Positions 4,942 through 55,028 of a stretch of DNA of 64,000 nt are shown here, piece by piece. Below the pieces are notes generated by a model, which saw only the letters and a list, made by a program, of their open reading frames with translations, ran no database searches and had not been told where the DNA came from. The translations under genes and the position numbers were made by a program. Source of the DNA: Tolypothrix sp. PCC 7910 (lineage in GTDB: Bacteria > Cyanobacteriota > Cyanobacteriia > Cyanobacteriales > Nostocaceae); NCBI RefSeq assembly GCF_011769525.1, contig NZ_CP050440.1, positions 7,007,501-7,071,500 on the forward strand, read 5' to 3'. Numbering within the stretch: position 1 is the stretch's first letter; every line of letters starts with the position of its first letter.

Positions 4942-6108
4942 ATGAAGCTGGCAGCACGAGTAAGTCAGGTAACACCCTCTTTAACCTTAGCGATCGCAGC
5001 TAAAGCTAAGGCAATGAAAGCAGAGGGTGTGGACGTTTGTAGTTTTAGCGCTGGAGAACCAGATTTTGACACTCCAGCCCATATCAAAGCAGCAGCAGTA
5101 AAGGCTTTGGATGAAGGCAAAACCAAATATGGCCCAGCCGCAGGAGAACCAAAGTTAAGGGAAGCGATCGCCCATAAGCTGAAAGCTGATAATGGTCTAG
5201 ATTATAAAGCAGAAAATGTCATCGTCACCAATGGCGGTAAGCATTCTCTCTACAATTTGATTGTGGCTTTAATCGATCCGGGTGATGAAGTCATTATCCC
5301 GGCTCCCTACTGGCTAAGTTATCCCGAAATGGTAACTTTGGTAGGTGGGGTTCCGGTTATTGTGACCACAGATGCTTCGACGGGTTATAAAATTACGCCG
5401 GAACAACTGCGGAAATCAATTACTCCCAAGACAAAGTTATTTGTCCTCAACTCGCCATCTAACCCCACCGGGATGGTGTATACGCCGGCAGAAATTAAAG
5501 CATTGGCGGAAGTAGTAGTTGATGCAGATATCTTTGTTGTCTCCGACGAAATTTACGAAAAAATTCTCTACGACGGTGCAGAACATATCAGCATTGGTTC
5601 TTTAGGGAAGGAAATTTTTGCCCGTACCTTGATTAGTAACGGCTTTGCCAAAGCTTACTCTATGACAGGGTGGCGACTTGGCTATTTAGCGGGGCCAGTG
5701 GAAATCATCAAAGCCGCAAGCACCATCCAAGGGCATAGTACATCTAACGTTTGTACCTTTGCTCAATATGGTGCGATCGCAGCTTTAGAAAGTTCCCAAG
5801 ACTGTGTAGAAGAAATGCGCCAAGCCTTCGCCAAACGGCGACAGGTAATGTTAGACAGACTCAACGCTATTCCCGGTTTGAGTTGTCCTAAACCTGACGG
5901 TGCTTTTTATCTTTTCCCCGACATCAGCAAAACTGGTCTAAAATCTCTAGAATTCTGTGATGCGCTGATTGAAGAACATCAAGTTGCAGTAATTCCCGGT
6001 ATTGCCTTTGGTGCTGATAAAAACATTCGCCTTTCCTACGCCACTGACATGGCTACCATTGAAAAGGGAATGGACAGATTGGAGAAATTTGTACGGAGTC
6101 GGATTTAG
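4942..6108 (+). CDS. aspC: Class I pyridoxal-phosphate aminotransferase, aspartate type
   Basis: The enzyme probably interconverts aspartate and oxaloacetate with 2-oxoglutarate/glutamate. The 388-residue sequence carries the whole class I pattern: KYGPAAGEP near residue 62, NSPSNPTG (about 170-177), the PLP-contacting SDEIYE (201-206), the Schiff-base lysine K237 in [17 protein letters not shown] and the substrate-binding arginine in IRLSYAT near the C-terminus. Length and start ([18 protein letters not shown]) fit the family's 1-gamma group, which can also act on prephenate or other acidic substrates. Heptameric tandem repeats begin at its stop codon. Specificity within the family is inferred. 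Confidence 0.93.
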
Positions 6109-6139
6109 GATTGGGGACTGGGGACTGGGGACTGGGGAA
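6108..6139. repeat. Heptanucleotide tandem repeat (GGGGACT type)
   Basis: GGATT followed by about four GGGGACT units begins at the aspC stop codon. This is the short tandem repeat class typical of Nostocales. The rest of the gap to 6372 shows only low-complexity pyrimidine-rich sequence (TTTACCCTTTTACCC). Confidence 0.85.
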
Positions 6140-15300: not shown

Positions 15301-17489
15301 AACAACTGCAACTGCTGAAAACCTCCACCCAGCCAGTAACCCTAGAAGAAGCCCAATTTCTGCGCTTAGATGGCCAAGCGATCGCGCTGGAAATCGCCGC
15401 CGCTGCTTTTACCTACCAAAATCAACCCGCATCGCAAGTTGTCGCCCGTGATATCACTGCGCGTAAACAAACGGAAGCATTACTACATCAAGTCAACAAT
15501 GAATTGGAATTAAGAGTTGCAGAACGGACGGCGGAGTTAATTAGTCTGAATCTGAAATTACAAACAGAACTCGATGAACGTCAGTCAATCCAAGAACAAC
15601 TACGCATTTCCCAGGCGAAATTTGCCCGAATTTTAGATATTGCTGATGATGCCATTATTTCCATCGATGCTACCCAAAAAATAACCTTATTTAACCAAGG
15701 TGCAGAGAAGATTTTTGGTTATCAGGCTGAAGAAGTACTGGGGCAGCAGTTAGATATACTCTTACCATTACGCTTTGCCTCAGCCCATCGTCACCATGTC
15801 GGCGACTTTGGCAAATCTCCCAGCCCTGCCCGGAGAATGGGCGAACGCCGAGAAATCTATGGTATGCGTCGGGATGGCACAGAATTTCCGGCAGAAGCCT
15901 CGATTTCTAAATTAGATATGGGAGGCGATACTTATTATACGGTAATTCTCAGGGATATTACAGAGCGCAAGCTAGTGGAGCGGATGAAAGACGAGTTTGT
16001 CTCCGTTGTCAGTCACGAACTCCGCACCCCCCTGACTTCCATTCACGGCTCCCTAGGAATGTTAGTTAGTGGCTTACTCCCAGCCAACTCAGAACAGGGA
16101 AAACGCCTGCTGCAAATTGCTACAGATAGTACTGAGCGCCTAGTCCGCCTGATCAATGACATCTTAGACATTGAGCGCATCGAGTCGGGTAGGGTGAAAA
16201 TGGAACGGGAAATCTGTAATGTCGCAGATTTGATTAAATCCGCCGTCAATGTCATCCAACCACTAGCAGATAAACTCGGGGTGCAACTTTCTATTGCTGA
16301 CGTGTCAATTCAACTCTGGGCAGATCCTGACAGAATTGTGCAAACCCTCACTAATTTACTGAGTAACGCCATTAAATTTTCCCATACTGGGGAAACAGTG
16401 TGCTTGACAGCCAAAACCCAAGGCAATGAAGTATTATTCGCCGTCAAAGATACCGGACGCGGAATCCCTGCCAACAAACTCGACAGTATCTTTGAGCGCT
16501 TTCAACAAGTGGATTCCTCTGATTCCCGTAACCATGATGGTACAGGTTTAGGTTTAGCGATTTGTAAAAGTATTGTGCAACAGCATAGCGGGCGAATTTG
16601 GGTAGAAAGTACCTTAGATGAAGGTAGTACTTTTTACTTCACATTACCAATTCTTTCGGCTCGGCAAACGCCTGAGCCAGTTCAGGCGATCGCACCCGAG
16701 TCAGGATACATGACTCAGCACTCCCCCCTAGTCTTAGTGTGCGATGATGACCCAGCAATCAGTCATGAATTACAAACCGTACTAAAAAAAGGCGGATATC
16801 AAGTCGTCACCGTAGCCAACGGACAAGAAGCGATCGCCGCCGCCGCCAGCCAAAATCCCGACGTAATTTTATTAGATTTACTCATGCCAGGGATGAATGG
16901 TTGGGAAACAATGGCAGTATTAAAAGAACGAGCTGATACCAAAGATATTCCGATTGTGATTTGTAGTGTCTACAAACAAACTAGCAGTAGTCAAGCCACC
17001 GCCGACTTTGTTGATTGGGTGAGTAAACCAGTTCAGGAAAGTAACCTGCTAAAATCACTGAGACAAGCAGTAGCAACAGCTTCTAAGCGAGTCAAAATTC
17101 TGATTGTGGAAGACGACAACGACTTAGCGCAACTACTCATAACCCTGTTTGAAAGGCATGATATTGACACCTACCTCGCCAAAACTGGCAGAGAAGCCAT
17201 CCGCCTGAGTCAACAAGTCAACCCCGACTTACTAATTCTCGACTTAATTTTGCCAGAAAGCGACGGTTTTGCCGTTGTCGATTGGCTACAGAAACACAAT
17301 CAACTATGTAGCACTCCTGTGGTAGTTTACTCCGCCACAGACTTAGACGAATCAGAACGCGATCGCCTGAAATTAGGACATACTGAATTTTTAACCAAAG
17401 GACGTGTCACCACTCAAGAATTTGAACAACGGGTAATGGAATTACTACAGCGAATTACACACAATAAACAAGAAGGAGAGCAATTTTAG
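12318..17489 (+). CDS. Giant phosphorelay protein: OmpR-type regulator - Hpt - REC - REC - PAS - GAF - PAS - PAS - histidine kinase - REC - REC
   Basis: The 1723 residues combine a full DNA-binding response regulator with a hybrid kinase. Order: receiver 1 (1-120, phospho-acceptor D51, K101) with an OmpR/PhoB winged helix (125-225, LTPKEYALLELF); Hpt-like domain with H296 (AHTLAGSLGTFG); a degenerate receiver (363-485, LLDPN, D414); receiver 3 (490-610, D539); PAS (629-750); GAF (756-925); PAS (937-1055); coiled coil; PAS (1101-1220); HisKA with H1233 (VVSHELRTPL); HATPase ([17 protein letters not shown]); receivers 4 (D1520) and 5 (D1642). No membrane segment is seen, so it is cytoplasmic. 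A promoter-binding output and its own kinase on one chain are unusual. The ligand and target genes are unknown. A single-receiver gene follows at 17652. Confidence 0.9.
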   Translation: MKILVVEDDELLVHVLSEILASLNYAVEVAHDGDTARDLIETYDYDLVLLDVMLPKMDGISLCRHIRSRGLQMPVLLLTGCDSSHEKAIGLDAGADDYVVKPFDQEELVARVRALLRRGGTTSQPVLEWGNLKLDPISCEVTYNHDLLSLTPKEYALLELFLRNSRRVFSCGMILEHLWSYEDTPGEEAVRTHIKGLRMKLRSVGAASDLIETVYGIGYRLKPQTPEEQGNKAELDAKKSANLHQQSQQQTLVAVAGIWQKFQGRVNQQLQILEQAAVSQKTLNPELRSQAAQEAHTLAGSLGTFGLPHGSKLARKIEQLLKSDKILTQSENSKLQNWVQRLRQEIESKQQESTSPPPHTDDNPLVLLVDGNGKLAEQLKVESANWNVKVTDANSIESARHFIYREHPSVVLLDPNVAPNPQESFSLLTELSQNKPPIPVLVFTEQSDFSNRLQIARNGGHRFLQKPMPAAQVLEAVTQVLQQAPHAEAKILAVDDDPHILALLETLLSPWGLKVIGLQDPRQFWTTLETVAPDMLILDVEMPHTNGIELCQVVRNDARWSELPILFLTVHSDAEIVNQVFSAGADDFVSKPIVGPELVNRIINRLERIKLLRRVTKCQSREVTTSENRWRSLFDSKHECITVIAADGTLLEINPACLAMLEANNNAAVIGKSIYELISPEYQQQFRQFHASICQGNQGTLQFEIVSSKGHRRWLETHAVPLRYEADGTTVQLAIMQDITEYKQAELEIRRVNRTLQALTNCSQVLVRAKDELDLLQRICQMIVEVGGYRLAWVGLAEHDPQSTISPVAQAGYEDGYLQSLNLNWADNPAGLGPVGTAIRTGQTCIIQNILTDPHYEIWRCQAIKQGYASSIALPLTADGQVLGALNIYATEPEAFDADEVKLLEALAIDLAYGMMALRNQRDRQIAEAALQKSQQSYQQLVELCPEAIFIESEGNFVFVNSAAVQLFGATQPQELLGKQVLGLVHPDSQPAVGEQLQLLKTSTQPVTLEEAQFLRLDGQAIALEIAAAAFTYQNQPASQVVARDITARKQTEALLHQVNNELELRVAERTAELISLNLKLQTELDERQSIQEQLRISQAKFARILDIADDAIISIDATQKITLFNQGAEKIFGYQAEEVLGQQLDILLPLRFASAHRHHVGDFGKSPSPARRMGERREIYGMRRDGTEFPAEASISKLDMGGDTYYTVILRDITERKLVERMKDEFVSVVSHELRTPLTSIHGSLGMLVSGLLPANSEQGKRLLQIATDSTERLVRLINDILDIERIESGRVKMEREICNVADLIKSAVNVIQPLADKLGVQLSIADVSIQLWADPDRIVQTLTNLLSNAIKFSHTGETVCLTAKTQGNEVLFAVKDTGRGIPANKLDSIFERFQQVDSSDSRNHDGTGLGLAICKSIVQQHSGRIWVESTLDEGSTFYFTLPILSARQTPEPVQAIAPESGYMTQHSPLVLVCDDDPAISHELQTVLKKGGYQVVTVANGQEAIAAAASQNPDVILLDLLMPGMNGWETMAVLKERADTKDIPIVICSVYKQTSSSQATADFVDWVSKPVQESNLLKSLRQAVATASKRVKILIVEDDNDLAQLLITLFERHDIDTYLAKTGREAIRLSQQVNPDLLILDLILPESDGFAVVDWLQKHNQLCSTPVVVYSATDLDESERDRLKLGHTEFLTKGRVTTQEFEQRVMELLQRITHNKQEGEQF

Positions 17490-17521
17490 ATTTTAGATTT
17501 TGGATTTTGGATTTTGGATTG
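17487..17521. repeat. Tandem repeat of GGATTTT type
   Basis: About five units of (T/G)GATTTT follow directly on the stop codon of the large regulator. The sequence continues into AAAATTCAAAATTT low-complexity DNA before the next gene. Confidence 0.75.
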
Positions 17522-22185: not shown

Positions 22186-22295
22186 GGCAAGGGGGCAGGG
22201 AGCTGGGGAGAAAAACTGGTTCAATTCTCAATTCTCAATGCCCAATGCCCAATGCCCAATGACCAACACCAAATGACCAATGACCAATGACAATC
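22186..22295. repeat. Heptanucleotide repeat tract overlapping the gpsA start
   Basis: The tract has a G-rich part, then CAATTCT units, then four ATGCCCA-type units (ATGs at 22238, 22245, 22252 and 22259) and ATGACCA units (22273, 22280, 22287). The gpsA start codon is the ATG at 22280, one unit of this array. Confidence 0.82.
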
Positions 22296-23227
22296 AACAA
22301 TCAGTAGCAATTTTGGGAGCAGGTGCGTGGGGAACAGCACTGGCGAATTTGGCTGCGGCTAATGGTCATCGGGTGCGGGTTTGGTCACGTTGGGGAGAGG
22401 AAACACTGGAAACAGTTTTAGAAGATGCCCAAATAATACTTTCTGCTATTTCAATGAAAGGTGTCAGGGATGTAGCGGCTCAAGTCAAGTCTTTACCTGT
22501 CTCTCCTGACACAATTTTTGTGACTGCTACCAAGGGTTTAGAACCAGAAACAACCTGTACGCCGTCGCAAATTTGGCAATCTGCTTTCCCTGACAATGCG
22601 GTTGTGGTTTTATCTGGCCCCAATTTATCGAAAGAAATTGAAATGGAATTACCAGCTGCAACTGTAGTCGCTAGCAATATTTTTGCAGCAGCGCAAATAG
22701 TGCAGCTGGTGTTTTCTTCTAATCGCTTTCGGGTATATACCAATCCCGATCCGGTGGGAGTGGAATTAGGCGGAACACTCAAGAATGTAATTGCGATCGC
22801 AGCTGGTGTATGCGACGGTTTACAATTGGGAACCAATGCCAAAGCTGGTTTAGTCACCCGTGGACTTACAGAAATGGTTCGCATCGGTAATTTCTGGGGT
22901 GCGAAAACGGAAACATTTTATGGTTTATCAGGCTTAGGGGATTTGCTCGCAACTTGCAATAGTCCCCTAAGCCGTAATTATCAAGTTGGTTACCAGCTAG
23001 CTGCTGGCAAAACACTCCAAGAAGTCCTCTCCCATCTCCAAGGAACTGCTGAAGGTGTCAACACCTGTCGAGTGTTGATGGAACGAGCCAGACAGCAGAA
23101 TATTCCTGTACCAATTACCGAGCAAGTCGATAGATTACTTCAAGGTAAAATCACACCCCAACAAGCCCTTGATGAATTAATGCTACGTGACATCAAGCCT
23201 GAGTATCATTTTGAGGATGGGAATTAG
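22280..23227 (+). CDS. gpsA: Glycerol-3-phosphate dehydrogenase [NAD(P)+]
   Basis: GpsA reduces dihydroxyacetone phosphate to sn-glycerol 3-phosphate for phospholipid synthesis. The N-terminal Rossmann motif is VAILGAGAWGTALA (about residues 9-22), followed by LSGPNLSKEI, the catalytic-lysine region LGGTLKNVIAIAAG and LSGLGDLLATCNSPLSRNYQVG. Length 315 is normal. The start codon belongs to an ATGACCA heptamer array: other ATGs 7 bases on either side are out of frame, and the one 21 bases upstream in frame hits a stop after five codons. The first five residues (MTNDN) are therefore repeat-encoded and could vary between strains. Confidence 0.95.
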   Translation: MTNDNQQSVAILGAGAWGTALANLAAANGHRVRVWSRWGEETLETVLEDAQIILSAISMKGVRDVAAQVKSLPVSPDTIFVTATKGLEPETTCTPSQIWQSAFPDNAVVVLSGPNLSKEIEMELPAATVVASNIFAAAQIVQLVFSSNRFRVYTNPDPVGVELGGTLKNVIAIAAGVCDGLQLGTNAKAGLVTRGLTEMVRIGNFWGAKTETFYGLSGLGDLLATCNSPLSRNYQVGYQLAAGKTLQEVLSHLQGTAEGVNTCRVLMERARQQNIPVPITEQVDRLLQGKITPQQALDELMLRDIKPEYHFEDGN

Positions 23228-23231
23228 GGAT

Positions 23232-23396
23232 TGGGTGCTGGGGATTGGGGAACTCGGGGCCCCCTCTGGGGATAAGGGGTAATGGGGACTGGGGACTAGG
23301 AGAAAAGGGGACAAGGGGAAACACCAAACACCCAATTACCCATTACCAATTACCAATTACCCAATGCCCAATGCCCCATGCCCCATGCCCTACTCC
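23232..23396. repeat. Composite heptanucleotide cassette after gpsA
   Basis: Three modules follow in order: G-rich (GGGGATT, GGGGACT and a unique CTCGGGGCCCCCTCTGGGG stretch), AATTACC units, and ATGCCCC units. The same modules, including the unique stretch, appear inside cobN at 30724-30905 on the opposite strand, so both derive from one copied cassette. Confidence 0.85.
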
Positions 23397-23909
23397 TTAT
23401 AAATACTGAACTGGTAATTGCTAGGTATTAGCACTTCAGCATTCTTACTAACGCATTGCCGATGACAATTACCTCAATACTTACCAAATATTCCCTAGAG
23501 AAAAATTCGTAATTTGTCAGGATACAACGTTTTTAGTGGTGTAGATATGACTATGCCGATTATGAACATCATTTTTACTGAAATATGTTTATACATTGTT
23601 ACTTTTGTAACAGTAAAATCTCATCAAATTTGAAATGTTGAAAAGCTAATTCAAAACTTAAAAGCTAGCTGTAGAAATGAATAGCTATTGGTTCAATGAA
23701 AGAACTACAGCAGCCTACTATTCGGTAGTTATGTAACAAAAACAACTATCACAGTTTTTTTGAAAAAAAATTCAAAAAAAACCGTAATAGAATCCTCAAC
23801 CGTGTTAGTTCTTCGTAAATCACGGGAACAATAGCAACAGTTGAATAGCTGACCATTAATTTTAGCTGACCGTAATCTATTGTTACCTGGAGCCATTGAG
23901 ACGATATTT
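23397..23909. other. sigC upstream region with a dyad
   Basis: No gene is visible. The region is AT-rich, as expected for a promoter and leader, and contains the perfect dyad at 23597-23612 (listed separately). A poly-A/T stretch (TTTTTTTGAAAAAAAATTC) lies near 23757. Confidence 0.5.
23597..23612. promoter_or_regulatory. Perfect dyad TGTTAC-TTTT-GTAACA upstream of sigC
   Basis: TGTTACTTTTGTAACA has two perfect 6-bp arms around TTTT, a form expected of a dimeric repressor or activator site. It lies 298 bases before the sigma factor start. It does not fit the NtcA consensus GTA-N8-TAC. The binding protein is unknown. Confidence 0.4.
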
Positions 23910-25160
23910 ATGCCAGCAACATCTTTTTACGCAGATGCCCCCTACAACGCACAAAAATCTCAGCAAATCTTAGACCAAGATCTTACGGTTGACGATCATG
24001 AGTTGCCTTTAGATGATTTGCAAGATTTAGAGTTGGCTTCTGTTGATCCCGCGAGTTTCGCTGCTAGCACCAACCGTCGGAGTACAGATTTAGTACGCCT
24101 CTATCTTCAAGAAATTGGTCGGGTACGCTTATTAGGGCGAGACGAAGAGGTTTCAGAAGCTCAGAAAGTCCAACGTTATTTGCGGATGCGGATAGTACTT
24201 GCTAATGCTGCTAAGCAAGGGGATGCAGTCATTGAGCCTTATCTGCGATTGATTGAAGTCCAAGAACGTTTAGCATCTGAACTGGGACATCGTCCGTCTT
24301 TAGAAAGATGGGCTGCTACTGCTGGTATCAACTTGTGCGATCTCAAGCCTACTTTATCTGAAGGTAAACGTCGCTGGGCGGAAATTGCCAAAATTACAGT
24401 GGAAGAATTAGAACAAATTCAGTCCCAAGGACTCCAGTCTAAAGAACACATGATCAAGGCGAATCTGCGCTTGGTTGTGTCTGTTGCTAAGAAATATCAA
24501 AATCGCGGATTAGAATTGTTGGATTTAGTCCAAGAAGGCACACTTGGCTTAGAACGTGCTGTAGAAAAATTTGACCCAACTAAGGGTTATCGCTTTAGTA
24601 CTTACGCTTACTGGTGGATTCGTCAAGGTATTACCAGAGCGATCGCTACTTCTAGCCGGACAATTCGCCTTCCTGTCCACATTACTGAAAAGCTCAACAA
24701 AATTAAAAAAGCTCAACGCAAAATTGCTCAAGAAAAAGGTCGGACTCCGACTTTGGAAGATTTGGCTGTTGAGCTAGAAATGACGCCAACTCAAGTTAGA
24801 GAAGTATTGTTACGGGTTCCTCGCTCTGTTTCTCTAGAAACCAAAGTAGGGAAAGATAAAGACACTGAGTTAGGCGAATTGCTCGAAACTGATAGTGTTA
24901 CTCCAGAAGAATTATTAATGCGTGAATCTTTGCAAAGAGATTTACAGCATTTGTTAGCAGATTTAACTAGCCGCGAGCGTGATGTAATTCTGATGCGGTT
25001 TGGTTTAGCAGATGGTCATCCCTACTCTTTAGCAGAAATCGGACGTGCGCTGGATTTATCACGGGAACGTGTACGCCAAATCGAATCTAAAGCTTTACAA
25101 AAGCTACGCCAACCAAAGCGCCGTAATTTGATCCGCGACTATCTGGAATCCTTGAGTTAG
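23910..25160 (+). CDS. sigC: Group 2 sigma-70 factor, SigC type
   Basis: The ATG at 23910 (MPATSFYADAPYN) gives 416 residues, the length I recall for Anabaena SigC. Sigma regions are all present: 1.2 (DLVRLYLQEIGRVRLL), 2 (LVQEGTLGLERAVEKFDP, then YRFSTYAYWWIRQGITRAI), 3, and 4.2 helix-turn-helix (YSLAEIGRALDLSRERVRQIESKALQKLR). Region 1.1 of the primary sigma factor is absent, so it is a non-essential group 2 factor. Its position just before furA supports the SigC name. Upstream in-frame codons from 23880 are probably untranslated. SigC has been linked to carbon/nitrogen stress and heterocyst gene expression in Anabaena. Confidence 0.85.
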   Translation: MPATSFYADAPYNAQKSQQILDQDLTVDDHELPLDDLQDLELASVDPASFAASTNRRSTDLVRLYLQEIGRVRLLGRDEEVSEAQKVQRYLRMRIVLANAAKQGDAVIEPYLRLIEVQERLASELGHRPSLERWAATAGINLCDLKPTLSEGKRRWAEIAKITVEELEQIQSQGLQSKEHMIKANLRLVVSVAKKYQNRGLELLDLVQEGTLGLERAVEKFDPTKGYRFSTYAYWWIRQGITRAIATSSRTIRLPVHITEKLNKIKKAQRKIAQEKGRTPTLEDLAVELEMTPTQVREVLLRVPRSVSLETKVGKDKDTELGELLETDSVTPEELLMRESLQRDLQHLLADLTSRERDVILMRFGLADGHPYSLAEIGRALDLSRERVRQIESKALQKLRQPKRRNLIRDYLESLS

Positions 25161-27448: not shown

Positions 27449-30400
27449 TTATTTTTCTTCAATTGCTGCTTCAGCTTGATGTACTAAGGCTCGTAACATT
27501 TCCAATGTTTGTGTATTTACATCCTGCCATAAACTGCGCTTATGTGCCTCCAATAATTTCTCAGCAATATCACGCAAAGCCCACGGATTTTTTTGGTGAA
27601 TAAATTCCTCCACCGCAGGATCGAGCAAATAAGTATTTACTATACCCTGATACATATAATCTTCGACACATTGAGTTGTGGCATCGTAGGCAAAAAGAAA
27701 ATCTACTGTCGCCGCCATTTCAAATGCTCCTTTGTAGCCGTGACGCATTACCCCAGCAATCCACTTGGGATTAATGACGCGAGAACGATATACCCGGGCA
27801 ATTTCCTCTTTGAGTTGGCTGACTTTTGGTTGGGCGGTATTGGAATTATCACCAAAATAAATTTGCGGATTCTGTCCTTGAAGAGAACGGACTGCAGTGG
27901 TTAAACCACCTTGAAATTGGTAATAATCATCAGAATCGAGTAAGTCATGTTCGCGGTTATCTTGGTTGTGCAGCACAACTTGCGTTTGCATCAAGCGTTG
28001 CTGTAAGGCTTCGGGGGCGGAGATGGGGGACTGGGTATTGGGGACTGGGGATTGGGTATTGGGGAGTATACTGCCTGAAGTATAGGCATAAGAACTCCAG
28101 TTAATGTAAGCGCGGGCTAAATCTTGGTCATCTGTCCAATTTTGCGATTCCATTAAGCCTTGGAGTCCAGCACCGTAAGCGCCTGGTTTAGAACCAAATA
28201 TGCGATAACGCGATCGCATTTGTGCTTCCTCTGAAGTTAATCCTTCTGCTTGCCAAAAATCAGTATCTTGCTTCACTTGTGCTGCTAGGGGATTTTGTTC
28301 TTGTGGTTCATCTAAGGCGGCTACTGCTTGCACGGCTGAGTCAAATAAATCAATCATGTTGGGGAATGCATCTCGGAAAAATCCCGAAATTCGCAATGTG
28401 ACATCAACGCGAGGTCTTCCTAAAACCGACAACGGTAAAATTTCAAAATCTACTACTCGCCGCGCTGCACCATCCCATACAGGCCGCACGCCTAACAGTG
28501 CTAAGGCTTCAGCAATATCATCACCACCAGTTCGCATTGTTGCTGTGCCCCACACTGATAATGCCAGTGTTTTGGGATACTCGCCATTATCTTGGGTGTA
28601 GCGCTCAATAAGTGTTTCAGCCGCTTTCCTGCCAATATCCCAGGCTGTTTCTGTGGGTAGGGCACGAATATCTACAGAGTAAAAGTTTTTACCTGTAGGC
28701 AATACTTCCGGGCGACCGCGTGTAGGTGCGCCAGAAGCAGCACTCTGGACATATCTGCCATCTAGTCCCCGTAACAAGTTGGTGATTTCTTGCTGGGTTT
28801 GTTGCAATGCGGGGAGGAGTTTGAGGGCGATCCAGTTGAGGATAGTGGGGATTGGGGATTGGGGATTGGGGATTGGGGAATAGGATAATATGAGTTGTTC
28901 GACTAGGTAAGCGGCGTGTTCTTCGAGGATTTCTACAGCATCGCCGATAGTGTGGCAAGATTTCAGCTTGGCGACAAGATGTAAAGGCGCGAGGGTAGAT
29001 TCTGGTAGGGTAAATTTGTCGCTGAAATTGGCGGTGAGGGGGTCGAAATCTAAACTCCATTCTTCAGCTAAGGCGCGAGTAATACCGATGGAATAGCGAT
29101 TAGGGATGCGCGCGATCGCTACTATTAAATCGCGTAATTGTTGCCCTTGGGGACATTGCCCAAAAATGTGTAAGCCATCACGAATTTGGGCTTCTTTTAA
29201 TTCACAAAGATAGCCGTTGATGGAATTTAAAATTAAATTTTCAAAGTTTAAAACATCTTGTTCATTAGTAATCCCTAAGTCTTGATGTAAATTCTCTTGC
29301 AGAATTAGTTCGCGGATGCGATCGCGAATCATTGGTAATCGCACCGGATCTAAACTTTCTGCTTCGTAATACTCATCAATTAAATTCTCTAATTGTTGCA
29401 GCGAACCATAGAGTTCCGCCCGTGTCATTGGGGGTGTTAAATGGTCGATAATTACGGCTTGACTGCGACGTTTAGCTTGGGAACCCTCACCCGGATCGTT
29501 GACGATAAACGGGTAGAGGTGAGGCATTGGCCCCAAAGCCACTTCCGGATAACAATTACTGGATAAAGCTAAACTTTTACCGGGAAGCCATTCTAGATTC
29601 CCGTGTTTTCCCACATGAACTACAGCATCTGCACCAAAACATTCCCTTACCCAATAATAAAAAGCTAAATAATTATGGGTTGGTTCTAAATCCGGTGCAT
29701 GATAATTCAAACTAGGGTCAAGGTCATAACCTCGTGATGGCTGAATGCCTACGAAAATGTTACCGAGTTGAATGCCGGGAATTGGGAATTGGGTGTTTGG
29801 TAATTGGTAATTGGTAATTGGTAATGGGACATTTTTTATTTCTTCCTTATCCCCAATCCCCAATCCCCAGTCCCCCCATCGCTGAGTAATACCTTGCTGT
29901 ACGGCTGATGGTAAGGTGGCGAAATAGTTTTGGTATTCTTCCTGAGAAAGGCTTTGGTTGACTGCGCGCCAATCTCTGCCTTCTGGATCGTTGGTTACGC
30001 CAGCGGTGAGGCGTTGAATTAATTCCTCGCTATTAGCAGGTAAATTTTCTACGTGATAGCCAGCTAATTGCAAAGCCTTGAGAATTTCTACACAACTCGC
30101 TGGGGTATCTAATCCCACGCCATTAGCGAGTCGTCCATCGCGGTTAGGATAATTGGCGACAATTACGGCAATACGCCTTTCTTGGGGTGGCTTGGAACGT
30201 AAGCGTACCCAATTAGCTGCTAGTTGAGTCACAAACTCAATGCGATCGCTTATTGGTTCATAAACTACCACATCGGTTTCTAAATCCTGATTGCGCGTTT
30301 GCACTGTTTTAAAAGACACAGCGCGGCTAATAATCCGCCCATCTACCTCTGGTAGTGCCACATTCATCGCAATATCACGGGGAGAAAGCCCTGCCATTTG

Positions 30401-31447
30401 TGATTCCCACTGCTCAACTCCTCCGCCACTGAGAATCACTTGTAACACTGGCACATCCAATTTTTCCCAAAGTTCAATTTGGGGTGTTTCTGTTTCTAAC
30501 CGCGCCAGAGAAAAGCTAGTGGTATTAAGCAGTACTGCAATTTGTTCTGATTCCTTGGGTTGGAAAAACTCGCTCAATTCCTCTTGAATATCCGGTTCGC
30601 GCAATGAAGAAACAAACACAGGCACAGGCTGTAAATTTTTCTGTACCAAAGCTTGACATAAACTATCAATTACTCTTGTATTGCCAGAAAGATAGTGAGC
30701 GCGGTAGAACAGAATGCCAACTTTGGGCATGGGGCATGGGGCATGGGGGATTGGGCATTGGTAATTGGTAATTGGTAATTGGTAATTGGTAATTGGAATT
30801 TCTCCCTGTCCCCTTGTCCCCTTGTCCCCCTCATCCCCAATCCCCAGTCCCCAGTCCCCATTACCCCTTATCCCCAGAGGGGGCCCCGAGTTCCCCAATC
30901 CCCACTCATAAAACCCAATTCGCGGTACTAATTCCGGTGCTGGGGGATTAAATGAAGTTGAAAGGCAAGTATCAGAAATAAACTGGAGTGCATTAACAAA
31001 ATTTTTTACACCACCTTGGCTAAAGTATTGCCATACTTGGTTCACAATATCTAAAGGCACGCTAGACTGAGAAACTAAATGGGGATCAAAAGCATCATCC
31101 CCTGGCATTACAATGAGGTTTATACTATTGCGTTGAACAATTTCTTGTACTACTTCTAAACCGTAAGCCCAATAGGAACGTCCTCCTAATAGGCGCACAA
31201 TAATTACTTGAGCAAGTTCTAAAACTTCCTCGCCATAACTGTCTATACTTATTTGTTGTTGTAACTGCAACAGGTTGGCAACTCTTAATGCAGGAAACGT
31301 CGCAGGTAATTGAGGAACCGCAGCTGCCAGGGTTTGAATGTCTGTATCAGCAGCCGTAATAAACACAAAGGGAGCTGGAGTTTGTTCTATAAAAATCAAG
31401 TCTTCTGACTGATTCCATCCTCCGGATGTGGCACTTACACGATGCAT
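27449..31447 (-). CDS. cobN: Cobaltochelatase subunit CobN with four repeat-derived insertions
   Basis: CobN is the large subunit of the ATP-dependent enzyme that inserts cobalt into the corrin ring. Family segments include KVGILFYRAHYLSGNTRVID, HVGKHGNLEWLPGKSLALS, MPHLYPFIVNDPGEGSQAKRR (each within the conserved core), ALSVWGTATMRTGGDD and MRHGYKGAFEMAATVDFLF. At 1332 residues it is longer than usual for CobN. The excess is four in-frame peptides encoded by heptanucleotide repeats, at about residues 182-240 (GDWGLGIGD, PITNYQLPITNYQ), 524-559, 854-868 and 1127-1141 (LPNTQSPVPNTQSP). The frame stays open through all four. ChlH, the magnesium counterpart, is related, but the N-terminal sequence is CobN-like. 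It diverges from a sensor kinase gene by 88 bases. Confidence 0.9.
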   Translation of the reverse strand: MHRVSATSGGWNQSEDLIFIEQTPAPFVFITAADTDIQTLAAAVPQLPATFPALRVANLLQLQQQISIDSYGEEVLELAQVIIVRLLGGRSYWAYGLEVVQEIVQRNSINLIVMPGDDAFDPHLVSQSSVPLDIVNQVWQYFSQGGVKNFVNALQFISDTCLSTSFNPPAPELVPRIGFYEWGLGNSGPPLGIRGNGDWGLGIGDEGDKGTRGQGEIPITNYQLPITNYQCPIPHAPCPMPKVGILFYRAHYLSGNTRVIDSLCQALVQKNLQPVPVFVSSLREPDIQEELSEFFQPKESEQIAVLLNTTSFSLARLETETPQIELWEKLDVPVLQVILSGGGVEQWESQMAGLSPRDIAMNVALPEVDGRIISRAVSFKTVQTRNQDLETDVVVYEPISDRIEFVTQLAANWVRLRSKPPQERRIAVIVANYPNRDGRLANGVGLDTPASCVEILKALQLAGYHVENLPANSEELIQRLTAGVTNDPEGRDWRAVNQSLSQEEYQNYFATLPSAVQQGITQRWGDWGLGIGDKEEIKNVPLPITNYQLPNTQFPIPGIQLGNIFVGIQPSRGYDLDPSLNYHAPDLEPTHNYLAFYYWVRECFGADAVVHVGKHGNLEWLPGKSLALSSNCYPEVALGPMPHLYPFIVNDPGEGSQAKRRSQAVIIDHLTPPMTRAELYGSLQQLENLIDEYYEAESLDPVRLPMIRDRIRELILQENLHQDLGITNEQDVLNFENLILNSINGYLCELKEAQIRDGLHIFGQCPQGQQLRDLIVAIARIPNRYSIGITRALAEEWSLDFDPLTANFSDKFTLPESTLAPLHLVAKLKSCHTIGDAVEILEEHAAYLVEQLILSYSPIPNPQSPIPTILNWIALKLLPALQQTQQEITNLLRGLDGRYVQSAASGAPTRGRPEVLPTGKNFYSVDIRALPTETAWDIGRKAAETLIERYTQDNGEYPKTLALSVWGTATMRTGGDDIAEALALLGVRPVWDGAARRVVDFEILPLSVLGRPRVDVTLRISGFFRDAFPNMIDLFDSAVQAVAALDEPQEQNPLAAQVKQDTDFWQAEGLTSEEAQMRSRYRIFGSKPGAYGAGLQGLMESQNWTDDQDLARAYINWSSYAYTSGSILPNTQSPVPNTQSPISAPEALQQRLMQTQVVLHNQDNREHDLLDSDDYYQFQGGLTTAVRSLQGQNPQIYFGDNSNTAQPKVSQLKEEIARVYRSRVINPKWIAGVMRHGYKGAFEMAATVDFLFAYDATTQCVEDYMYQGIVNTYLLDPAVEEFIHQKNPWALRDIAEKLLEAHKRSLWQDVNTQTLEMLRALVHQAEAAIEEK
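28025..28070. repeat. In-frame heptanucleotide insertion 4 in cobN
   Basis: GGGTATTGGGGACTGGGGAT-type units lie inside cobN and encode the SILPNTQSPVPNTQSPIS stretch on the minus strand. The surrounding CobN sequence resumes in frame on both sides. Confidence 0.8.
28845..28888. repeat. In-frame heptanucleotide insertion 3 in cobN
   Basis: About five GGGGATT units encode SPIPNPQSPIPT on the minus strand. This is the shortest of the four insertions and has only the G-rich module. Confidence 0.8.
29771..29878. repeat. In-frame heptanucleotide insertion 2 in cobN
   Basis: On the minus strand it runs GGGGATT units, then ATTACCA units, the same module order as the cassette at 23232. It encodes GDWGLGIGDKEEIKN and PITNYQLPNTQFPIPG within CobN. 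Confidence 0.82.
30724..30905. repeat. In-frame composite heptanucleotide cassette 1 in cobN
   Basis: On the minus strand it carries the G-rich module with the unique CTCGGGGCCCCCTCTGGGG stretch, five AATTACC units and ATGCCCC units, in the same order as at 23232-23396. It encodes about 59 residues of CobN (182-240) without a stop. Confidence 0.88.
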
Positions 31448-33814: not shown

Positions 33815-33857
33815 ATAACTCTTAGGGATTGAGATGAGGAGGATGAGGGAAATGAGG

Positions 33858-33945
33858 GGATCAATTACCAATTACCAATTACCAATTACCAATTACCAAT
33901 TACCCTATGCCCCATGCCCTATGCCCCATGCCCCATTCCCAAAAG
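33858..33945. repeat. AATTACC / ATGCCCC heptamer array at the NanE-like start
   Basis: Six or more AATTACC units are followed by ATGCCC(C/T) units. The array has the same module order as the cassettes at 23232 and in cobN. The likely start codon of the next gene (33921) is one of its ATGCCCC units. Confidence 0.82.
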
Positions 33946-34604
33946 GTTTAATTGTCTCTTGCCAAGCCCCTGTTGATTCACCGTTGCATCAACCGCTAGT
34001 AATTGCGGCGATGGCACAAGCTGCGGTGAATAATGGTGCTGTTGGGGTGCGGATAGATACCCCCAATCACATTCAAGCTGTGCGTGCTTGTGTGGATGCG
34101 CCAATTATTGGGCTGTGGAAGCAAGTTATCGCTGGCTACGATGTCTACATTACCCCTCAGTTTCACCATGCTGTAGCTGTGGCGGCTGCTGGGGCTGATA
34201 TTATTGCCATTGATGCCACCATGAGAAGCCGCCCTGGTGATGAGCAATTAGCAACGATGATTGCCAGAATTCATCAAGAATTAAATAAACCAGTTATGGC
34301 AGATGTCGATACAATTGAGGCGGCAAAAGCAGCAGTCAATGCTGGAGCAGATATTGTGGGAACAACTCTTTTTGGTTACACAGCTTCAACCAAAGATTTT
34401 ACGCCTCCTGGTTGGGAACTCCTCAGCCAGATGGTAGAACAGCTAAATATTCCCGTGATTTGTGAAGGTGGGATAGCTTCACCCCAAATGGCTCGTCAAG
34501 CCTTAGCTTTAGGGGCTGATGCTGTTGTCGTTGGTACTGCTATTACTGGGATTGACATTCAAGTCAGAGCCTATAAATCAATGATGAGTTCTGAAGAATT
34601 ATGA
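33921..34604 (+). CDS. nanE: NanE-like putative N-acetylmannosamine-6-phosphate 2-epimerase
   Basis: This is a TIM-barrel protein of the NanE family, which converts ManNAc-6-P to GlcNAc-6-P in amino-sugar catabolism. Visible family segments are GLIVSCQAPVDSPLH near the start, GVRIDTPNHIQAV, IIGLWKQVI, ADIIAIDATMRSRPG, VMADVDTIEAAKAA, ADIVGTTLFGYT and the phosphate-binding VICEGGIASP...ADAVVVGTAIT. I prefer the ATG at 33921 (MPHAPFPKGLIVS). The same frame is open back to 33834, but those residues (ITNYQLPITNYQLP) are pure heptamer-repeat translation. The stop overlaps the ackA start as ATGA, so the two are translationally coupled. No other sialic-acid genes are nearby, so the true substrate is uncertain. 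Confidence 0.85.
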   Translation: MPHAPFPKGLIVSCQAPVDSPLHQPLVIAAMAQAAVNNGAVGVRIDTPNHIQAVRACVDAPIIGLWKQVIAGYDVYITPQFHHAVAVAAAGADIIAIDATMRSRPGDEQLATMIARIHQELNKPVMADVDTIEAAKAAVNAGADIVGTTLFGYTASTKDFTPPGWELLSQMVEQLNIPVICEGGIASPQMARQALALGADAVVVGTAITGIDIQVRAYKSMMSSEEL

Positions 34605-53600: not shown

Positions 53601-54986
53601 AAGCGCTTAAGTGAATTTATGGGCGGTACCATGTGGGTAGAAAGCGACGTGGGAGTCGGCTCGACATTTTATTTCACCATAGTGGCGCAAGCAGTTTCCA
53701 GTCCTGAAAAATTTGAAATTGATATTTTACAGCCAAATTTATCAGGCAAAAAACTGTTAATAGTTGATGACAACGCCACCAATCGCCAAATTATCACCCT
53801 ACAAGCCTCAAGTTGGGGTATGGAGGTACGTGCAGCCACTTCAGGCTGGCAAGCTTTGGAATATATCACCTCTGGGGAAAAATTTGATTTAGCTATTTTG
53901 GATATACAGCTGCCACAAATGAATGCTTTAACTCTGGCAGCAAAAATTCACTCTTTACCAAGCTGTCAAGATTTACCCTTAGTATTGCTCAGTTCTGTGG
54001 GAGAATTAGCAAACCCAGAACAGACAACCACATCAAATTTTATCGGTATTCTGAATAAACCAATTAAGCGATCGCATCTTTTAGATCTCTGCATTCGCAT
54101 CTTCGCTGGACAAAAAGCTTGTGTCTTACCTGTGCAATCGTCGCTACCGCCAGTATTTGATTCTAAATTGAGCCAACAACTACCCTTAAGTATTTTGTTA
54201 GTCGAAGATATTACTTTTAACCAAAAGGTAGCTGTAAAAATGTTAGAGCGCTTGGGTTATCAGGCTGATGTCGTCAATAATGGACTAGAAGCACTCTCAG
54301 CTTTGCGCCGACAATCTTACGATCTAGTCTTTATGGATGTACAAATGCCAGAAATGGATGGACTAGAAACAACACGCCAGATTCGTCAAGAATGCGTCGA
54401 GCAAAGCCAACCTTGGATTATTGCCATGACAGCCCATGCTATGCAAGGCGACAAAGAAGAGTGTATCAGCGCCGGAATGAATGACTACATTACTAAACCT
54501 ATCCGATCTGAAGCTCTTGTCCAGGCTTTTAACAATTATAAAGCTTTGCATTCATCGAATAATAACCAAGATATTGAGCATTCAGAATTAAAGACCTTTT
54601 CTCAACTAGAAATTAATTCTCAGATAAGTTTGCCACCTGCTATTGATGCTGCAACTTTTCAATCTTTAAAAGATTTAGCAATTGATGAAACTGACCTTTT
54701 AGCAGAGATAATTGAATGTTATTTGGATGACACACCAAAAAAACTACTAGCAATTTCTCAAGCCGTTGAACAAAAAGATGCTGTAGGAATTTGCCAAATT
54801 ACTCATTCTTTAATCTCATCGAGCCTGACAATTGGTGCTGTGGTTTTCGCTCAATTATGCAGAAAAATAGAAACAATAGGGAGGGCTGGTAGTACAGATA
54901 ATGCCGCTCAATTAGTTGAGCAACTTCAAATAGAGCATCAAAGGGTAAGAGATGTTTTGCAATTAGAAATAATAGGTAATAGGTAA
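50682..54986 (+). CDS. Membrane hybrid histidine kinase: CHASE - PAS - PAS - GAF - HK - REC - REC - Hpt
   Basis: Two membrane helices ([18 protein letters not shown], about 18-36; [19 protein letters not shown], about 264-284) bracket an extracytoplasmic CHASE-type sensor domain. Then come PAS/PAC domains (about 320-440 and 450-570), GAF (about 590-745), HisKA with H785 ([15 protein letters not shown]), HATPase ([24 protein letters not shown]), receiver 1 (D1074), receiver 2 (D1219, [11 protein letters not shown]) and Hpt with H1375 ([14 protein letters not shown]). The Hpt motif lacks the usual Lys-Gly after HSL. Start context is weak. The last codons (GNR) and stop fall in a heptamer repeat. 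The ligand is unknown. Confidence 0.9.
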
Positions 54987-55028
54987 TGGGTAATTGGTAA
55001 TGGGTAATTGGTAATTGATAATTGGTGT
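54972..55028. repeat. GGTAATT heptamer array at the kinase stop
   Basis: Units of TAATGGG/TAATTGG follow each other from inside the kinase stop codon to just before the IS left end. Confidence 0.8.

Follow-up and report, generated by a model that had tools for sequence, protein, structure and literature searches.

The heptanucleotide repeats of heterocystous cyanobacteria known as STRR are usually described as intergenic and have been used for fingerprinting. A further class of repeats, the SDR of Nostoc punctiforme, said to have been described by Elhai and co-workers in 2008, reportedly consists of very short sequences of 21-27 nucleotides (nt) that often lie within heptamer arrays, are limited to relatives and, in three families, share a secondary structure; we know of no SDR work that recounts in-frame entry into core genes. 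In Nostoc sp. PCC 7120, the quadruplex-forming heptamers GGGGA(C/T)T are reported to be 68 percent intergenic, although a notable part lies within genes (Rehm et al., 2015; PMC4692102). In Rickettsia, the palindromic elements (RPE) are small repeats of about 150 bp, palindromic by name, that sit in frame in protein genes and add peptide to the product, each with a conserved peptide (PMC10969869). Here we describe heptamer arrays and a dispersed 37-nt element inside cobN, the gene of a cobaltochelatase subunit, in Tolypothrix sp. PCC 7910. The gene lies in a stretch of 64,000 nt, hereafter the window (G000:C1:7007501-7071500), of a genome of 8.76 Mb that is G000 in our comparison, in which G-numbers denote genomes and L-numbers loci; genus refers to the eight genomes grouped with G000, its own included. 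The evidence makes it likely that a repeat family has been entering permissive loops of CobN and is kept open there by purifying selection.

The cobN open reading frame (ORF) is open throughout in the ORF list of the window, with no internal stop. Its product matches the CobN profile TIGR02257 over the full length with 1657 bits (cut-off 822), which identifies it as a CobN, and PF02514 matches it likewise. The solved structures nearest to it by sequence are those of CobN 9uk9 and 7c6o, and its model fits 7c6o with a template-modelling (TM) score of 0.73, ChlH structures also being matched. It is the sole CobN found in the genome, the paralogues ChlH and BchH-like being encoded by separate genes, and its core is under purifying selection: the ratio of nonsynonymous to synonymous substitution (dN/dS) in core codons is 0.06-0.11 in eight pairs, seven within the genus and one outside it. 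The possibility that constraint is relaxed by another CobN copy was considered and rejected, the remaining strong homologues being ChlH and the BchH-like gene. The repeats occupy four segments of the gene, S1 to S4:

27449-31447, minus strand: cobN, cobaltochelatase subunit of 1332 amino acids (ORF call and profile matches)
30725-30916, minus strand: S1, residues 178-241 (tandem repeat rows, genus comparison and model)
30860-30896, minus strand: exact copy of the 37-nt element inside S1, with its 24-nt core at 30864-30887
29783-29878, minus strand: S2, residues 524-555 (tandem repeat rows, genus comparison and model)
28838-28891, minus strand: S3, residues 853-870, AATCCCC heptamers in a helix-helix loop of the model
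28016-28087, minus strand: S4, residues 1121-1144, degenerate AGTCCCC/AATACCC heptamers

An initial annotation of the window had claimed four stop-free heptamer tracts in cobN, and these are real: besides the open 1332-residue frame, tandem repeat rows are found at all four places, with Tandem Repeats Finder reporting period 7 (or 14, 21) at 28022-28065, 28846-28879, 29780-29829 and in overlapping rows at 30723-30800. Near-perfect arrays of 4.9 and 6.4 units are present. The annotation had also taken the tracts to be made of the same heptamer units. This holds at the sites, S2 consisting of GGGGATT-type heptamers, a purine-rich linker and AATTACC and AATTCCC heptamers, and has to be widened for S1, in which GGGGATT/GGGGACT, AATTACC and CATGCCC heptamers are accompanied by the 37-nt element and GGGGACAA-type units. 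That each tract keeps the reading frame proved wrong: as drawn, the tracts measure 46, 44, 108 and 182 nt, only one of them a multiple of three, and what preserves the frame of cobN is the variable segment as a whole rather than the single tract. Counting four insertions was likewise too generous. S3 is 18 amino acids long in five of the eight genus genomes (own included), whether filled with AATCCCC units, CTCAGCA units or degenerate sequence, and its heptamers within the genus are a replacement of equal-length sequence rather than a net insertion; S4 is the weakest site, lying below the strict tract threshold and above the lenient one.

To place these segments in a wider context, 98 genomes were searched for CobN. 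Three of them (G030, G070 and G086), whose best matches were taken for paralogues, were left out; loci came from the other 95, and the 81 with one full-length ORF entered the alignment, the 14 excluded loci mostly being at contig ends. A further 80 loci, used only for names and element copies, were not added to the 81. Inserts of at least 8 amino acids relative to the shared core were found at S1 (residue 186) in 45 of the 81 proteins, at S2 (531) in 43, at S4 (1126) in 38 and at S3 (857) in 27, the next places having inserts in 13, 9 and 6; the four tracts coincide with the most length-variable places across the 81 cyanobacterial CobN. Strict period-7 tracts occur at S1, S2, S3 and S4 in 26, 17, 17 and 9 genomes, respectively, and of the 99 such tracts in these genes 91 fall at S1-S4 and 8 outside them. 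With the lenient threshold, all four sites carry tracts in only 3 of the 81 (G000, G007 and G037), which bears out the supposed rarity of the combination; the same sites are, however, the usual places of length variation in cyanobacterial CobN, and other conserved genes of G000 (nifJ, hypF, cobT-like, cysS and nirA) also carry tracts or the element. The prospect, raised in the annotation as counter-evidence, that most CobN have non-repeat sequence here was realised in part, 39 of the 81 being without a period-7 tract at any of the four sites at the lenient threshold. Many CobN fill the four sites with unrelated variable sequence, whole segments shrink to 8-11 amino acids in others, and heptamers are not the sole repeat type, as the same set also contains 25 period-8 and 16 period-9 tracts.

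The annotation offered insertion-tolerant loops and selection for open copies as possible explanations, and both are supported. In the AlphaFold model, which spans residues 139-1332 only (58 sequences, mean predicted local distance difference test score, pLDDT, of 72.5), pLDDT falls below 50 at model residues 46-99 (S1), 391-412 (S2) and 988-1000 (S4); S1, S2 and S4 are predicted to be disordered and S3 to form a loop between two helices. Among the eight genus genomes, S1 has eight distinct lengths, S2 six, S3 three and S4 five, and different heptamer families swap for one another at the sites. All segments are nonetheless open and in one frame in 8/8 genus genomes despite their differing lengths.

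The coding properties of tandem heptamers explain how this can be so. A tandem 7-mer cycles through the three frames in 21 nt and encodes the same heptapeptide in any phase (GGGGATT gives GDWGLGI, AATTACC gives NYQLPIT, AATCCCC gives NPQSPIP and CATGCCC gives HAPCPMP); only the total length therefore matters for the frame, and openness is set by the unit and its strand. The only closed unit among those tested was GGTAATT, the reverse of AATTACC, and both AATTACC arrays of cobN are in the open orientation, as required. Each heptamer shifts the frame by one, and one or two units gained or lost restore any frame. The 37-nt element, being 1 modulo 3, comes into frame in the same way, 37 + 7k being divisible by three when k = 2 mod 3.

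Frame conservation was also followed in tract-bearing blocks of cobN, nifJ, cysS and hypF by comparing their nonzero length differences among five genus genomes (for hypF and nifJ the search covered 29 genomes each, the loop comparison the five only). Inside genes, 62 of the 63 differences are multiples of three, as against 5/11 at gene edges and 2/6 between genes; the contrast of 62/63 with the 7/17 of edges and intergenic regions taken together gives p = 1.2e-7, a guide only since the pairs share ancestry. When each place and size is entered a single time, the counts become 38/39 coding, 3/8 at edges and 2/6 intergenic. The lone coding exception, a 7-nt difference in cysS, can be read from the sequences as an element that in G003 stands one unit ahead of its place in G000, with an offset on the other side.

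Heptamer arrays are not peculiar to cobN. In 864 kb of G000, made up of 40 evenly spaced 20-kb samples and the window and representing about a tenth of the genome, 184 raw or 173 merged period-7 tracts were counted, whereas periods 5, 6 and 8-11 gave at most 5 each and the same sample shuffled in 50-bp blocks gave no period-7 tract. The tracts are therefore not due to chance, and the occurrence of GGGGA(C/T)T units in tandem across the genome places them in the heptamer repeat type. Twenty-six of the 173 merged tracts lie wholly within a greedy set of ORFs of at least 100 amino acids that covers 77 percent of the sequence, many of them in doubtful ORFs or close to either end of an ORF. Clear interior tracts outside cobN are found at one place each in nifJ, a cobT-like gene, hypF and the gene of a DUF2157-like membrane protein. 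The gene richest in heptamer tracts within the sample is cobN.

The 37-nt element, whose exact sequence in S1 is GGGGAACTCGGGGCCCCCTCTGGGGATAAGGGGTAAT, is dispersed as well. A search of G000 for its 24-nt core gives 62 exact and 70 near copies, with none for a reversed-pattern control, and the other genus genomes have from 0 to 211 core copies; in all, the element is present in 16 of the 58 genomes searched, own included. The 70 copies have well-defined ends, GGGGAACTC on the left in 67 and TAAT on the right in 68, and adjoin a heptamer on their right side in 66 cases and on their left side in 56. A stable hairpin is not supported by folding, since single-sequence folding of a 41-nt stretch gave z values of +1.77 and 0.0 on the two strands, no better than shuffled sequence. 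A second exact copy is found in the window:

23247-23283, plus strand: 37-nt element between the ORFs 22280-23227 and 23880-25160

Within genes, the element occurs in different reading frames and in either orientation. In S1 of cobN it lies on the coding strand in G000 and G007, on the opposite strand in L028 and L279 and in another frame in L308, and it is reversed in S3 of G004 and in S4 of L317. Other G000 genes with the element are cysS and nirA, and a reversed copy lies in an open frame of 400 amino acids or more that has a weak helicase match. In relatives it is found in cysS (G003), mutS2 (G007) and cbiA/cobB (three copies in G002; also in G003, where the gene was named by the likeness of its translation to that of G002), and a diverged copy is present in a polyketide-synthase-like gene of G011. 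In MutS2 of G007 (L345, about residues 448-485), the element and AATGCCC-type heptamers stand directly before the LVLLDEVGAGTDP stretch, which we take to be Walker B-like.

For several of these genes, versions with and without the element can be compared in close relatives. The left half of cobN S1 has 67 nt with the element (G000, G007) and 37 nt without it (G002, G003). Likewise, S3 has 78 nt with the element (G004) and 48 nt without it (G000, G003), or 54 nt in G007; this comparison lacks G002 (L008), in which the pattern was not matched. The cysS frame encodes 497 amino acids with the element (G000, and G003 with the element one unit earlier) and 487 without it (G002, G004, G007). The nirA loop, located by its motif in 6 of 11 loci, the other 5 being without the motif, has 31 amino acids in G000 and 14 in G002, G004 and G007, where a short G-rich seed is found; it has 21 amino acids made from another heptamer in G003 and an unrelated 47 amino acids in G009. 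Plain gains between filled and empty versions are 30 nt (37 - 7) or 51 nt (37 + 14). In cbiA of G002 the three copies in tandem are spaced by 51 and 72 nt, whereas the 16 other tandem spacings among the listed G002 copies are 44 (five), 51 (five), 58 (three), 72 (two) and 77 (one); the presence of 44, 58 and 77 means that outside cbiA the spacing is not confined to multiples of three.

On its own strand, one frame of the element includes TAA and another TGA or TAG-type stops. The G000 copies that lie within genes in the TAA frame (cysS and nirA) are the only 2 of 70 carrying CAA at that place, for which a Fisher test gives p 0.0025, taking four intragenic copies and omitting a doubtful fifth in a 129-amino-acid ORF as well as copies near ORF starts; loci L345-L350 were picked for their open frame and hence are not in the test. 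This pattern is suggestive only of stop avoidance. The change from TAA to CAA was not accepted as proving selection on its own, because CAA also occurs outside sizeable ORFs in G002 and open ORFs are stop-free by definition. The proportions also differ between genomes, G024 having 22 CAA-type and 8 TAA-type copies, the opposite of the genus of the window.

Taken together, these observations point to a spreading genome-wide family of GGGGAYT-type heptamer arrays, with a 37-nt element mostly embedded in them, whose copies would land in, or be swapped between, many genomic places. Copies in coding sequence would survive only if they lie in permissive surface loops or linkers and the whole segment stays open and in frame. 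A stop-free heptamer unit, open in all frames, would be easy to carry in a gene, and the element could be brought into frame by gain or loss of heptamers. The repeat peptides are presumably translated and probably near-neutral passengers, and the element is presumably mobile. A stronger version, in which heptamer arrays act as frame-adjusting landing pads that let the mobile element enter essential genes and are tuned by unit number, is put forward tentatively, as we rate it somewhat below an even chance. If true, the arrays would be a standing route from non-coding repeat DNA to cyanobacterial protein.

Several observations weigh against the account of a repeat family tolerated in permissive loops. 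CAA copies are found outside sizeable ORFs in G002 (6 of 9 examined), so that CAA is a standing variant and does not prove that copies were repaired once inserted. Between the filled S3 of G004 and the S3 of G007 the difference is 24 nt, not 30, and between the filled nirA loop and that of G003 it is 30 nt, not 51; both are still multiples of three, but neither is a simple filled/empty pair. The net gain of 30 nt could be a fixed property of insertion rather than the result of selection. The non-coding control is small, with 17 comparisons, all 6 intergenic ones coming from the nifJ flank and those at edges from cysS and nifJ. Beyond the genus, the in-frame state is partly built in by the requirement for one full-length ORF, and among the loci left out by it the cobN frame breaks within the S3 repeat of G035 (L081) and the S2 repeat of G058 (L101), breaks for which real split genes, off alleles and errors could not be told apart. 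In addition, the frame changes at S1 in G087 (61 percent complete) and breaks several times in G067 (86 percent complete), and cobN of G063 (L070) is split at S1 into an N-terminal part, 1-184, and a remainder from 242, a split point that fits S1 as a domain junction. An ArsR-like gene, as read from the printed frame, lies between the two CobN parts at S1 in G063.

The breaks in G035 and G058 are also what a contingency switch would produce, in which heptamer slippage toggles the CobN frame or expression is tuned by GGGGAYT quadruplexes formed in the mRNA. The near-perfect arrays of 4.9 and 6.4 units, each unit of which alters the frame, would suit such a role, and Nostoc GGGGA(C/T)T oligonucleotides are reported to make quadruplexes in vitro (PMC4692102). 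However, one full-length open frame is found in every genus genome and in 81/95 overall, close relatives swap arrays for unrelated sequence, which a conserved switch would forbid, the G-rich strand is the template at S3 and S4, and the same report gives the repeats as under-represented on coding strands (PMC4692102). We therefore consider a switch improbable. Positive selection for useful peptides seems very unlikely too: the repeats are kept in core genes such as cysS and their Pro/Gly/Asn-rich products may serve as linkers, but composition and length vary freely in the genus, other CobN manage with segments of 8-11 amino acids, and unrelated enzymes carry the same peptides, since the DNA unit dictates them.

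The idea that bypass, splicing or cleavage takes the segments out of the product has nothing specific in its favour and can hardly be credited, as bypass or splicing needs neither multiple-of-three length nor stop-free sequence, and both are kept, although no dedicated intron or intein search was made. As for an assembly artefact, contigs do end near residues 842-876 in G016, G021 and G074, but dozens of different assemblies, several of them in few contigs, have such tracts at these sites, and this cross-genome agreement leaves the artefact practically no weight.

The preferred explanation, repeats that enter permissive loops and are retained under purifying selection, can now be set beside the known systems. 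With the STRR it shares tandem heptanucleotides in Nostocales. As with the SDR, there are many dispersed copies (70 in G000), mostly embedded in heptamers, while the repeated unit here is 37 nt, with a core of 24 nt as cut here, against the lengths said to hold for SDR. The units and their genome-wide spread are those of the Nostoc heptamers, for which counts and positions are given in the consulted part of that report, whereas loop mapping, frame arithmetic and an embedded element are added here (Rehm et al., 2015). Like RPE, the element sits in frame in protein genes (cobN, cysS, nirA, cbiA/cobB and mutS2), and it differs from RPE as described in being 37 nt long, showing no stable hairpin on folding, needing heptamers for frame and being read in several frames and on both strands (PMC10969869).

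Heptamers inside genes are already known; what looks new is the arithmetic of frame invariance and tuning, and the repeated in-frame occurrence of the element in core genes with empty relatives. A literature search, with subscription papers mostly outside it, turned up no work that places heptamers or a small element in loops of proteins or sets out the frame rule; as evidence of novelty this is weak. In close relatives, filled and empty versions of one core gene offer a natural experiment on how junk repeats become protein sequence in bacteria, with insertion, frame correction and tolerance directly readable, and they mark natural permissive loops in CobN, CysS, NirA and HypF. For annotation, GDWGLGI, PITNYQL, SPIPNPQ and HAPCPMP in cyanobacterial proteins are likely signatures of DNA repeats, not domains.

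Some further occurrences of the repeats were noted. Repeat segments are present in three cobalamin-pathway genes, a cobT-like gene (L120), cbiA/cobB (L346, L347) and cobN of the window. Elsewhere in the window, three ORFs have a heptamer array that starts at their stop codon or overlaps it, at 6108 (array 6108-6138), 17489 (17483-17520) and 54986 (54970-55026). The NanE-like ORF 33834-34604 has a heptamer-coded N-terminus (33862-33940) ahead of a Pfam domain that begins at residue 57, and its true start codon may lie further downstream.

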